NCBI GenBank assembly: GCA_009789175.1
Contig: CP046866.1
Span: forward strand, 1,984,001 to 2,048,000
Reading direction: 5' to 3'
From: Salinibaculum litoreum
GTDB taxonomy: Archaea; Halobacteriota; Halobacteria; Halobacteriales; Haloarculaceae
Length of the DNA: 64,000 nucleotides
Shown: one piece after another, positions 27,129 to 30,646 of the stretch
Numbering within the stretch: position 1 is the stretch's first letter
Layout: each line of letters begins with the position of its first letter
The notes under the pieces: generated by a model
Databases searched by the model: none
Seen by the model: only the letters and a program-made list of their open reading frames with translations
What the model was told of the DNA's origin: nothing
Translations under genes and position numbers: made by a program

Positions 27129-27634
27129 TCCTCGCCGTCGGTCGACTCGTCGTCGTCCACGTCGGCAGCCTCGGCCGGTTCGCCTTCCTCGGTGGCATCG
27201 CCACGCGCAGCAGTCTCGTCGCTGGTGGCCTGCTCGGCCGCCGCGTCGTCTGCACGCTCCGGTTCGACTTTCGGAATCTCGACCTGAAGTGTGCCGTTGT
27301 CCTTCAGCGTCGCCGACGCACCGTCGGGGTCGACGGTGGCTTCCTCGGGCAGGGCAACCGAGCCATCGAGCGTGAGCCCACGGCCGGGGAAGCGCATCTC
27401 GAAGCCCTCGCGGAACTCCCGGAAGCGGTCGATACGGGCGAAGACAGTGCCGTCCTCGAAACGGACCTGCACGTCGCCCGCCTCCGCGCTTGGGGCGTCG
27501 AAGACCGCGAGGTAGGCATCGTCGCTTTCGAGCAGGTCCGCGGCCAGGGGTCGCTGTTCCTGCGTGCGGCCGACCGCGCGACCGACCGACTCGACGATGG
27601 CGTCGCCGACGGACTCACCGAGTTCCCGAATCAT
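27125..27634 (-). CDS. Hsp20/alpha-crystallin-family protein
   Basis: 169 residues. After a helical start (MIRELGESVGDAIVESVGRAVG) comes a beta-sandwich alpha-crystallin domain at about 38-120: AYLAVFDAPSAEAGDVQVRFEDGTVFARI, then GRGLTLDGSVALPEEATVDPDGASATLKDNGTLQVEIPK, which matches the P(E)-x-DxxxxxAxxxxGxLxVxIPK end of the small heat-shock fold. The last 45 residues are a disordered acidic tail. It may act as an ATP-independent holdase. Its ATG overlaps the stop of the upstream 52-residue zinc protein (27631-27634), so both are probably one transcript. Confidence 0.8.
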   Translation of the reverse strand: MIRELGESVGDAIVESVGRAVGRTQEQRPLAADLLESDDAYLAVFDAPSAEAGDVQVRFEDGTVFARIDRFREFREGFEMRFPGRGLTLDGSVALPEEATVDPDGASATLKDNGTLQVEIPKVEPERADDAAAEQATSDETAARGDATEEGEPAEAADVDDDESTDGED

Positions 27635-27789
27635 AGCTCGATTTCCTCCAGGCAGTCTGTGCCGCCGCAGTACGGGCAGTTGAAATCGGCCACGCCGACG
27701 CTGTCGGACATATCGTAGGTGTAGTGCATCTCGAACATGTCGAGTTCACACCCGTCGTCGGTACAGGCGACTTCCAGGGTGGCTGGCAT
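27631..27789 (-). CDS. Small zinc-ribbon-like protein, DUF7559-like
   Basis: 52 residues (MPATLEVACTDDGCELDMFEMH..., ending CPYCGGTDCLEEIEL). Two cysteine pairs, C-x4-C and C-x2-C with a further Cys, suggest a zinc-bound ribbon. I recall DUF7559 for this haloarchaeal family. It is the first gene of a two-gene unit with Hsp20, with the 4-bp ATGA overlap typical of coupling. The in-frame extension upstream (to 28200) reads through the structured intergenic element and is not credible. Function unknown. Confidence 0.72.
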   Translation of the reverse strand: MPATLEVACTDDGCELDMFEMHYTYDMSDSVGVADFNCPYCGGTDCLEEIEL

Positions 27790-27878
27790 ATCCGACTGTT
27801 GGAGCGGAACCGACAAGAATGGTCCGCCTTCGAGGAGGAGTGAATGGGGTTCTGAGCGGGAAAACAGCAGTCGTGTTG

Positions 27879-28047
27879 AACAGCAAGAAAGCCCCGAGAA
27901 CCCCTTTCGGACCCACCCTTGCTGATTGATCAACCGAGCGGGGTGGGACTGAAAGGGGCGAGTGGCTACGCGAACCCCGCCGACGCAAGCACCTACTGGA
28001 GCGCAGCGAGGCGCGGGAGCGTAGCCACTCGGGGCTTTCTTGCTGTT
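27879..28047. ncRNA. Candidate structured element: nested inverted repeats forming a three-way junction
   Basis: Three nested helices are visible. Closing stem: AACAGCAAGAAAGCCCCGAG at 27879-27898 is perfectly complementary to 28028-28047 (20 bp). Inside lie two hairpins: arm B, CCCCTTTCGGACCCACCC at 27901-27918 against GGGTGGGACTGAAAGGGG at 27941-27958 (15 of 18 pairs), whose loop holds the palindrome TTGATCAA; and arm C, CGAGTGGCTACG at 27959-27970 against CGTAGCCACTCG at 28020-28031 (12 bp), with an inner CCCGC/GCGGG helix. It reads as structure on either strand, so orientation is undetermined. It may be a non-coding RNA or a non-autonomous mobile repeat. I could not test copy number. Confidence 0.55.
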
Positions 28048-28079
28048 TCCATCGGTAGTTCTGACGCTATCACGCCGAG

Positions 28080-28121
28080 CACCCTGACCAGCAACAGGAA
28101 CCACTCCTGAGGGTGTCAGAC
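28080..28121. repeat. Imperfect direct repeat, left of the lipoprotein gene
   Basis: Starts CACCCTGACCA, contains CCACTCCT, ends GTCAGAC. The same three blocks in the same order, closer together, occur at 28868-28894. AACGGTTCT follows at 28122-28130. Confidence 0.5.
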
Positions 28122-28221
28122 AACGGTTCTCATACCTGCTCTCTGCTCCCTCGATATGCTCAATACAGGACGCGGTCGATACGGAGAAAGCACTTACCAA
28201 TGCTCTCGGAATCGTCTATCG

Positions 28222-28764
28222 ATGAGGCTCGCCCGCTATGGTCTCCTGCTGTGTTGTATCCTCGTCGCTGGCTGCATCACTGGTGGTCCCACGGGAACCG
28301 GTGTGTCCCCAACCACGACAGCGACACCATCACAAGCATCTCCGGCTTCGACGACGGCCCCAACACCCTATCCCGAACCGACTCCAGTGACCGAACTGGC
28401 GTCCACTGAAGTCACGTGTGATGAGTCTCTGTCCGTGAGCTTCTGGAACGGTTGGACGCAGAACAGCGTGCGGGTGAGCTACTACCTTCCTGCAAACACG
28501 AGCATCCTTCTGGTAACGTACATTGACGGGACCGTCCAGAGTGCCACTATCCGGAAAAATACCCACGATGATGGTATCCACGCTGATGGTGATAAATTGC
28601 TTTTACAGAACGCCCTCTCAGGGGTGCATACCGTCAGAACCGTCGTCTATCAGGATTCCAATGGTGATGGACAGTTCGAAAAGGGCGTTGATTCGCCCTG
28701 TCAGGTTGCTGGCGAAGTGGTGCAAGCTGGACCAACGCGGATGAACTTCAGCAACATCGGGTAA
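28222..28764 (+). CDS. Secreted lipoprotein, DUF7282-like C-terminus
   Basis: 180 residues. The N-terminus MRLARYGLLLCCILVAGC ends in a lipobox (LVAG-C18), so the mature protein should be lipid-anchored on the cell surface by the Sec route. A Thr/Pro/Ser-rich linker (about 20-60) leads to a compact domain. Its end, SGVHTVRTVVYQDSNGDGQFEKG, resembles the repeat end of haloarchaeal DUF7282 surface proteins and includes a calcium-loop-like DSNGDGQFE. Base and codon use are clearly AT-richer than the neighbours. The gene lies between imperfect direct repeats, which suggests recent acquisition. The longer in-frame start at 28156 lacks a signal sequence. Confidence 0.7.
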   Translation: MRLARYGLLLCCILVAGCITGGPTGTGVSPTTTATPSQASPASTTAPTPYPEPTPVTELASTEVTCDESLSVSFWNGWTQNSVRVSYYLPANTSILLVTYIDGTVQSATIRKNTHDDGIHADGDKLLLQNALSGVHTVRTVVYQDSNGDGQFEKGVDSPCQVAGEVVQAGPTRMNFSNIG

Positions 28765-28867
28765 GCAGTGCTCGCTTTTAGAGATATTTGGTAATTTGAC
28801 AGTCTTAGTGAGTGGGTTATTTATCTCCCACAGTCTGAAATCAACCACCTTGGGAACGGTTCTATGA

Positions 28868-28894
28868 CACCCTGACCACTCCTAGCAGTCAGAC
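28868..28894. repeat. Imperfect direct repeat, right of the lipoprotein gene
   Basis: CACCCTGACCACTCCTAGCA continuing to GTCAGAC; it shares the 11-mer CACCCTGACCA, the 8-mer CCACTCCT and the 7-mer GTCAGAC with 28080-28121. AACGGTTCT precedes it at 28855-28863. The AT-rich 28765-28927 spacer holds no gene; a GTGGG/CCCAC hairpin at 28812-28831 may be a terminator. Confidence 0.5.
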
Positions 28895-28927
28895 ACGGTT
28901 TTACGCGTCGAGCGAGTATCCGAGTCC

Positions 28928-30646
28928 ATGACTGACCCGGCGGCACTCTCCGTAACAATCGTGGACGGCTACGTGGACGAGCCGGCCCACTTCGGCGTCC
29001 CGCCGTACATCTCGACGTATCCGCGCTACGTCGCCGGCGCGCTCGTTGACGCTGGCGTCCCCCGCGAACAGATCACCTACCACACCATCGACGCACTCCG
29101 CGAACAGCGCCAGCGCTGGCAGGATGTCGACGACGCCGACCTCATGGTCTACGTCGGCGGGATGACCGTCCCCGGCAAGTACGTCGGCGGCACCCCCGCC
29201 GAACCCGACGAGGTGCGGGAACTCGCCTGGACCGCAAGCGGCACGACGCTGATGGGCGGCCCCGTCCGCTTCGGCGTCGGCGACGAAAACGCCGGCGCAC
29301 AGGACATGGAACGCGACGACCTCGATTACGATTTCGTCGCCAAAGGCGACGTGGAGGCCGCGGCCTACGACCTCGTCCACGGCGGCATGGAGGGCTTTGG
29401 CGACCGCATGCGTGACAACGACGAAATCTCGCGATGGGCCAGGAAGGGAGCGTTCGTCGTCGAGCAACACCCCAACCACCCCGAGTATCTCATCTGCGAG
29501 ATGGAGACCTCACGTGGGTGTCCGTACCGCTGTTCGTTTTGTACCGAGCCACTCTACGGCGCGGACCCGACCTTCCGCTCGCCCGACTCCGTGGTCGGAG
29601 AGGTCGACGCCCTCTCTGATTACGGTGCAGCCCACTTCCGACTCGGACGGCAGGCCGACATCCTCGCCTACGGCGGCGACGGCGAGGCACCGAACCCCGA
29701 TGCGCTCCGGGAACTCTACAGCGGCATCCGTGACGTGGTGCCGGACTTGGGGACGCTGCACCTGGACAACATGAACCCCATCACCATCGTCAAATGGCCC
29801 GAGAAATCCCGGGAGGGGATTCGCATTATCGCCGAACACAACACGCCCGGCGATACGGCAGCGTTCGGACTGGAGTCGGCGGACCCGCTCGTCCAGGAGG
29901 AGAACAACCTCAACGTCTCCGCCGAGGAGTGTCTGAAAGCCGTCCGCATCGTCAACGAGGAGGCCGGGTGGCGTCCGGGTGGTCCCGACGACCCACGCTC
30001 GACCAGTGACGCGGAGAGCGACCGCCTGCCCAAACTGTTGCCGGGCATCAACCTCGTCCACGGCCTCAAGGGCGAGCGCGAGGAGACCTTCGAACACAAC
30101 CGCCAGTTCCTCCAGCAGGTCTACGACGAGGGGCTGATGCTCCGGCGGGTGAACATCCGGCAGGTGATGGCCTTCGAGGGCACCGAGATGTCCGAGACCG
30201 GTGCGGAGATTGCCCACGACCACAAAAAGCAGTTCAAGCAGTACAAACGCGAGGTTCGTGAGGAGATAGACAACCCGATGCTCCAACGGCTGGCGCCGCC
30301 GGGCACAGTGTTAGAAAACGTCCACCTCGAATACCACCAGGACGGCAAGACGTTCGGCCGCCAGCTTGGCACCTATCCGCTGCTGGTGGGGATTCCCGGC
30401 GAACGCGAACTGGGGCGGGCCATCGACGTGGCCGTCACCGACCACGGTTACCGGTCGGTGACCGGCGTTCCCTACCCGCTGGATGTCAACCGGGCGTCGA
30501 TGGACGAACTCACCGCGCTTCCCGGCGTCGGCAAGCAGACGGCGGGCAACATCGTCGTCGAGCGGCCCTACGACTCCGTCGGAGAGGTCGGCGAGGAGAG
30601 TCTGACACGCTTTGCGACGGCGAGCAGCCCGGAAGGGGCGGACTAA
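28928..30646 (+). CDS. Radical SAM protein with C-terminal helix-hairpin-helix
   Basis: 572 residues. An N-terminal Rossmann-like domain (about 8-190; VTIVDGYVDEPAHFG, LMVYVGGMTVPGKYVGG) resembles the B12-binding-like fold of the radical SAM/B12-binding group, without the DxHxxG cobalamin motif. The radical SAM barrel follows, with CPYRCSFC giving C198-x3-C202-x2-C205. A TRAM-like region (PGTVLENVHLEYHQDGKTFGRQLGTYPLLVGIP; here quoted from PGTVLENV to LVGIP) precedes a final helix-hairpin-helix: DVNRASMDELTALPGVGKQTA. That suggests nucleic acid contact, possibly RNA. TATA-like GGTTTTACG lies about 30 bp upstream. Substrate unknown. Confidence 0.85.
   Translation: MTDPAALSVTIVDGYVDEPAHFGVPPYISTYPRYVAGALVDAGVPREQITYHTIDALREQRQRWQDVDDADLMVYVGGMTVPGKYVGGTPAEPDEVRELAWTASGTTLMGGPVRFGVGDENAGAQDMERDDLDYDFVAKGDVEAAAYDLVHGGMEGFGDRMRDNDEISRWARKGAFVVEQHPNHPEYLICEMETSRGCPYRCSFCTEPLYGADPTFRSPDSVVGEVDALSDYGAAHFRLGRQADILAYGGDGEAPNPDALRELYSGIRDVVPDLGTLHLDNMNPITIVKWPEKSREGIRIIAEHNTPGDTAAFGLESADPLVQEENNLNVSAEECLKAVRIVNEEAGWRPGGPDDPRSTSDAESDRLPKLLPGINLVHGLKGEREETFEHNRQFLQQVYDEGLMLRRVNIRQVMAFEGTEMSETGAEIAHDHKKQFKQYKREVREEIDNPMLQRLAPPGTVLENVHLEYHQDGKTFGRQLGTYPLLVGIPGERELGRAIDVAVTDHGYRSVTGVPYPLDVNRASMDELTALPGVGKQTAGNIVVERPYDSVGEVGEESLTRFATASSPEGAD

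Follow-up and report, generated by a model that had tools for sequence, protein, structure and literature searches.

A folded intergenic element of Salinibaculum litoreum is probably a reduced copy of a MITE-like, multi-hairpin repeat of Halobacteriales

Introduction

ISH2 is a haloarchaeal MITE mobilized by ISH8, and further MITEs have been described from Halobacterium (MITEHsal1 and MITEHsal2, the latter 411-413 bp long with target duplications of 8 or 6 bp; PMC10264941) and from Haloquadratum, which has five families (PMC3119063). The repeat that we report here shares with haloarchaeal MITEs its short length, absence of genes, in one class of copies inverted ends in common with an IS and target duplications, and, putatively, movement in trans, but differs in its order-wide core, its two or three covarying hairpins and its at least two unrelated end types. 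A multi-hairpin core of order-wide range is not described in the texts on haloarchaeal MITEs, with MITEHsal2 compared by description only. Haloarchaeal IS6-family elements have the same outer ends, GGYRGTGTTTAGTT, and the same 8-bp target duplication as one subclass of the repeat; however, they are ~700 bp long with a transposase gene, whereas the repeat has none and the copy analyzed here is without GGYRGTGTTTAGTT ends.

Other palindromic repeats invite the same comparison. REP/BIME/REPIN sequences with their RAYT partners are also intergenic, palindromic and abundant, with inverted hairpin modules and tandem derivatives; in the present repeat the modules are much longer, one class has target duplications and the genome of our copy has no Y1 transposase. 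Like the PATE and SMR elements of Haloquadratum, the repeat is without transposase, is palindromic or has inverted ends, and is numerous in a haloarchaeon (PMC3119063). PATEs, as derivatives of IS605, have near-terminal palindromes like those of IS605 and no inverted ends (PMC3119063), while our copy has inverted ends. SMRs lack a target duplication and prefer other mobile elements as targets (PMC3119063), whereas the repeat has duplications in one class of relatives, none being seen for our copy, and sits between genes.

The repeat fits best under MITE-like elements, as a new type with multiple hairpins. We found no description of it in the open-access papers that we searched, which is not proof of its absence from the literature. 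If this reading is true, most sampled haloarchaeal genomes hold an unnamed structured repeat, often beside promoters, that accounts for much folded intergenic DNA and warns against labeling such folds ncRNAs. It would also supply markers of recent transposition, and its almost free sequence change alongside strict pairing, an unusual combination, would be directly testable in genetically tractable haloarchaea.

Results and discussion

Anatomy of the window copy

The window is the whole stretch of DNA that was analyzed, 64,000 nucleotides of S. litoreum (contig CP046866.1, positions 1,984,001 to 2,048,000). The original prediction placed in it a 165-nt element, without an ORF on either strand, that folds as a three-way junction in an AT-richer patch and could be a non-coding RNA or a mobile element. 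The fold is present as described, a 20-bp stem around two hairpins, in an element of 169 nt. The intergenic patch is indeed AT-richer (58% G+C against 64.7% for the window), which is not true of the element itself (63%). Taken literally, an open frame does cross the element, a 189-codon frame on the minus strand (27631-28200), of which the coding part is only the 52-aa DUF7559 gene starting at 27789; the 169 nt contain no plausible coding frame of their own, and hence no transposase gene. The features are:

27631..27789, minus strand: zinc-ribbon gene (DUF7559, 52 aa)
27879..28047, no strand assigned: whole structured element, an asymmetric copy in the order end - A - B - end (fold z -10.7; CM R1 match)
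27879..27895, plus strand: left end repeat AACAGCAAGAAAGCCCC, which with 27896-27898 makes one side of the 20-bp closing stem (inverted pair)
27896..27900, no strand assigned: site of the second hairpin cassette B' in symmetric relatives, absent here (comparison with L023, L035, L048 and others)
27901..27959, no strand assigned: central palindrome A, CCCCTTTCGGACCCACC ... GGGTGGGACTGAAAGGGGC, with TTGATCAA in the loop (fold)
27960..28030, plus strand: hairpin B, with a 12-bp hypervariable outer stem GAGTGGCTACGC/GCGTAGCCACTC and a conserved inner part with AAGCACC and GCGCAGCGAG (alignment, pair counts)
28031..28047, minus strand: right end repeat GGGGCTTTCTTGCTGTT, the perfect inverse of the left end (inverted pair)
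28222..28764, plus strand: lipoprotein-like gene with lipobox LVAGC, without a Pfam family

On both strands the closing stem (27879-27898 with 28028-28047, a perfect inverted pair that is longer in relatives) surrounds hairpins A and B. The fold energies of the two strands are -120.4 and -117.6 kcal/mol, compared with about -72 kcal/mol for shuffles (z = -10.7 and -10.3), and none of 200 shuffles was equally good. A chance fold or a local inverted duplication without relatives deserves next to no credence: this z-score stands against it, the order-wide homologues with compensatory changes presented below refute it, and the searches left nothing in its favor.

An order-wide repeat family

In its usual, symmetric form the repeat consists of an end repeat AACAGCCAGAAAGCCCC, hairpin B', palindrome A (GCCCCTTTCAGTCCCACCC...GGGTGGGACTGAAAGGGGC), hairpin B and the inverted end repeat. 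Palindrome A is the most conserved module among relatives, and the left end motif of the window copy also bounds copies in other genomes. Lacking B', the window copy forms a three-way instead of a four-way junction, so the junction originally predicted is a reduced form of a structure that usually has a fourth arm. The CM R1 match (G000:C1:2011945-2012040, E 9e-21) spans its A arm and hairpin B. In the same genome, blastn found a second copy that has these parts arranged symmetrically (G000:C1:2999617-2999877), and the covariance model a third, degenerate place (C1:2620127).

Matches at E <= 1e-5 occur in 95 of 146 genomes of the same taxonomic family. Across the order, 204 of 293 sampled genomes and 67 of 88 genera match the B-hairpin covariance model at E <= 1e-6, with at most 13 candidates scored per genome, so that copy numbers are lower bounds. 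No match fell outside the order among 197 genomes sampled from the phylum, all 28 positives lying within it. Carriers include Haloarcula, Haloarchaeobius, Halorussus, Haloglomus and Haloparvum, and the repeat is also found on plasmids of Natrinema, Halobaculum, Natribaculum and others; the phage records searched gave no match. The phrase GGGTGGGACTGAAAGGGG, pointed out in the original prediction, does recur in many haloarchaeal intergenic regions, and with multiple intergenic copies dispersed through the order the element is not the local curiosity that it might have proved to be.

Variants of the usual form were also observed. Head-to-tail arrays of the end unit alone, with a period of ~45-54 bp and up to five copies, occur at one element edge (L057:6599-7311, L083:530-905, L060:5659-5899, L098:4159-4608). 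Extra hairpins are nested inside B cassettes in L032, L043, L051, L181 (for example CGAAAGACGCGGAGCGTCTTTCG), L192 and others, and bring some elements to over 400 bp.

Covariation and exchange of hairpin cassettes

Compensatory base changes, which had been proposed as a check, are abundant in relatives of hairpin B. Among 204 distinct B cassettes, the outer stem reaches at least 8 Watson-Crick pairs out of 12 in 189, which comprise 128 different 12-nt sequences, and the arms of a copy match each other at 10.8 of 12 positions compared with 5.7 for arms of other copies. When 68 cassettes are aligned, each of the 12 outer pairs has changed on both sides, and pairing is retained in 98.2% of cells. 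For the hairpin as a whole, these cassettes give a covariation score of 0.592, compared with 0.169 when shuffled and at most 0.102 for slid structures; the tallies count sequences and not events, and related cassettes are not independent.

Such strong covariation could be attributed to a structured ncRNA or RNA element, transcribed and with its junction selected as RNA. The same reading is favored by the stability of both strands relative to shuffles and by the tolerance of G.T over A.C on one strand: read outward from A, the outer-stem mismatches are G.T in 40 and A.C in 9 distinct cases, whatever the direction of the neighboring gene. This excess, however, tracks the orientation of the hairpin and not that of the gene, remaining 8 to 1 even at sites that readthrough could reach on the opposite strand only, and G.T makes up merely ~2% of outer-stem pairs. 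In addition, B' and B face opposite ways within one element, many copies are located after the end of one gene and before the promoter of the next, and derivatives with mismatched stems have multiplied in one genome (G032, below). Rfam contains no family that matches at gathering score; the weak miRNA models returned at a relaxed threshold, far below their cut-offs, were dismissed as chance matches. We therefore regard an RNA role as decidedly unlikely, the ncRNA half of the original proposal having gained no positive support beyond the structure itself. The G.T excess hints instead at selection on one single strand of each hairpin rather than on one RNA across the element, which simple hitch-hiking does not predict. 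We infer that the folds act as DNA hairpins or cruciforms rather than as RNA.

Orthologous sites reveal how the core changes. At the site shared by L071 and L124, whose flanks are 90% identical, both hairpin cassettes differ around an unchanged A and between unchanged ends, and at the L139/L142 site the entire element is inverted. The core is modular, with cassettes B' and B swapped as whole units between fixed frame sequences. The simplest cause of these within-site changes is recombination between copies, by which cassettes would probably be replaced; inheritance of both arms in one cassette, together with some selection or repair for complementarity, could then yield stems that are variable and still paired. 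A more elaborate possibility is that exchange recognizes structure (site-specific or ssDNA-based) and that one-strand selection keeps the cassettes folded, giving archaea of the whole order a system of folded, mutually exchangeable DNA cassettes on different transposon ends, as opposed to an ordinary MITE reshuffled by homologous recombination. We consider this quite unlikely. The outermost inverted repeats of L139/L142, GGAACNACTGTGT and ACACAGTNGTTC, possibly represent a third end type.

Two classes of mobile copies

In a first class, found mainly in two genera, the ends continue past GAAAGCCCC for 39 bp, as far as GGYRGTGTTTAGTT, and a perfect direct repeat of 8 bp lies on either side. Direct repeats of at least 8 bp at matching distances flank 11 of 75 elements, compared with 1.25 expected from a swapped-flank permutation, and six of the 11 are exact with ends 39-40 bp outside GAAAGCCCC. 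Further perfect 8-bp duplications occur in L174, L194, L196 and L181, with two more in L208, so that at least a dozen relatives have a target-site duplication. At the L036 site, AGCAGTGCG occurs once in G024, while in G011 the element has a copy of GCAGTGCG on each side. The 14-bp ends GGYRGTGTTTAGTT of this subclass (L028, L035, L181 and others) are also those of an intact 696-bp IS6-family element (L209), which lies on a Haloarcula plasmid. Because the outermost 14 bp are IS6 ends and insertions duplicate 8 bp, the enzyme in this lineage would most likely be an IS6-family transposase. An IS4-type transposase (DDE_Tnp_1) near an IS6-like end in L199 was rejected as the parent, since ~530 bp of other sequence lies between them and the end is that of IS6.

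The first class is numerous in G032, an incomplete 2.2-Mb genome (loci L174-L198, L206-L208) in which several copies are internal-deletion derivatives. This genome has 84 exact GGYRGTGTTTAGTT ends, compared with none for the reversed control pattern, and this is a recent burst. Several of its copies read as the left part of one hairpin joined to the right part of another, and these have multiplied with mismatched stems, from which it follows that hairpin pairing is probably dispensable for IS6-type movement.

The repeat resembles REPINs (PMC3116915) in its inverted pairs of hairpins, its tandem arrays of ends and its strand-specific mismatches, and it could in principle belong to a REP/REPIN-type system moved through single-stranded hairpins by a Y1 (HUH) transposase (RAYT or IS200/IS605 TnpA). 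We found no Y1_Tnp domain (PF01797) in the genome of the window copy, the 8-bp target duplications and IS6 ends indicate a different mechanism, and in Archaea the IS200 subclass is the only one of TnpAY1 found (PMC6006769). A system of this type is very improbable.

Copies of the second class have no IS6 ends and are flanked by CTAG 40-59 bp outside the frame. The motif is found at 22 of 87 start-side and 13 of 63 stop-side flanks, where ~0.7 and ~0.5 are expected (~25-30 times background). A role for CTAG as a promoter motif was ruled out by its enrichment on stop-codon sides too. Joined-flank searches in 20 genomes of the genus Haloarcula found that some species carry an element at the L094 and L095 sites and that others have the empty site. 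For L095, the sequence is GACGCAC-CTCG-GACGG in G016 and GACGCAC-CTAG-element-CTAG-GCGGCGG in G028, which is consistent with a 4-bp duplication and is not proof of one, CTAG being palindromic and the empty sequence differing. CTAG would mark insertion of this class by a second, different enzyme.

Taken together, the family extends through the order with multiple dispersed copies, its hairpins are conserved with compensatory changes, one class has target duplications and IS6 ends, and sites occur both empty and filled; along with the inverted ends, these observations support the mobile half of the original proposal. We consider it likely that the window element belongs to a non-autonomous, MITE-like mobile repeat of Halobacteriales with a multi-hairpin core, and is an old copy of it with a single cassette. 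Transposases encoded elsewhere would act on the inverted ends of these gene-free elements and insert them between genes, usually a short way upstream of a promoter. Several points count against this explanation. The window copy has no recognized target duplication, no GGYRGTGTTTAGTT IS6 end and no CTAG in its flanks. IS6 ends are found mainly in two genera. Deep covariation is not required of plain MITEs, so the hairpins need an extra explanation, and so does the excess of G.T over A.C mismatches, with its hint of selection on one single strand. Since it lacks the IS6 end, the window copy was not filed as an IS6 MITE. Genes for IS6-type transposases, with variant ends, are present in the same genome. 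The copy resembles the CTAG class more than the IS6-end class, and it presumably moved like its relatives. GTTCTGA, the only word that its flanks share, was rejected as its target duplication, as the distances are unequal and the chance expectation is ~0.2 by our own estimate.

Position relative to genes

Start-facing ends lie 85-99 bp from the start codon in 44 of 128 cases. The left GAAAGCCCC edge of the window copy is 97 bp from the start codon of the zinc-ribbon gene, and its right edge 182 bp from that of the lipoprotein gene. In archaea, a position ~50 bp upstream of the start codon is just outside the basal promoter. Class 1 insertions, with arms of ~40 bp, would fall at about this position.

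This placement raises the possibility of a domesticated DNA-structure element, a promoter boundary or insulator in which cruciforms part transcription units and selection keeps the stems paired. The sharp distance to start codons fits such a role, as do the location of the L094 and L095 sites between back-to-back promoters, the presence of copies by similar genes in several genera and the preservation of pairing over large divergence. A preference for divergent promoters was nevertheless rejected, the gene-orientation classes of filled and other intergenic regions being alike (p = 0.20), and the distance could result from insertion just outside the promoter. Orthologous genes in congeners at other loci also do without the element. 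An insulator role, which is compatible with a mobile origin, is on balance unlikely.

At the window site, the sister species G142 and the relatives L151 and L153 have the same zinc-ribbon gene without the element, next to an adjacent gene that differs from that in the window. The zinc-ribbon gene of L151 and L153 stands back to back with the radical-SAM gene, with no lipoprotein gene in between, so that the element and the lipoprotein gene both belong to a lineage-specific insert. In the window and in L150, L151, L153 and L154, the DUF7559 zinc-ribbon gene directly precedes an Hsp20 gene. Degenerate direct repeats (ACCCTGACCA..CCACTCCT..GTCAGACA.CGGTT; 28086-28132 and 28851-28900) stand on either side of the lipoprotein gene, which is also flanked by inverted repeats (28110-28132/28851-28873). 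Finally, a CTCCTAG within 28878-28928, ~45 bp upstream of the radical-SAM start and with no adjacent element, resembles the edges of CTAG-class elements and is possibly the scar of a lost copy.
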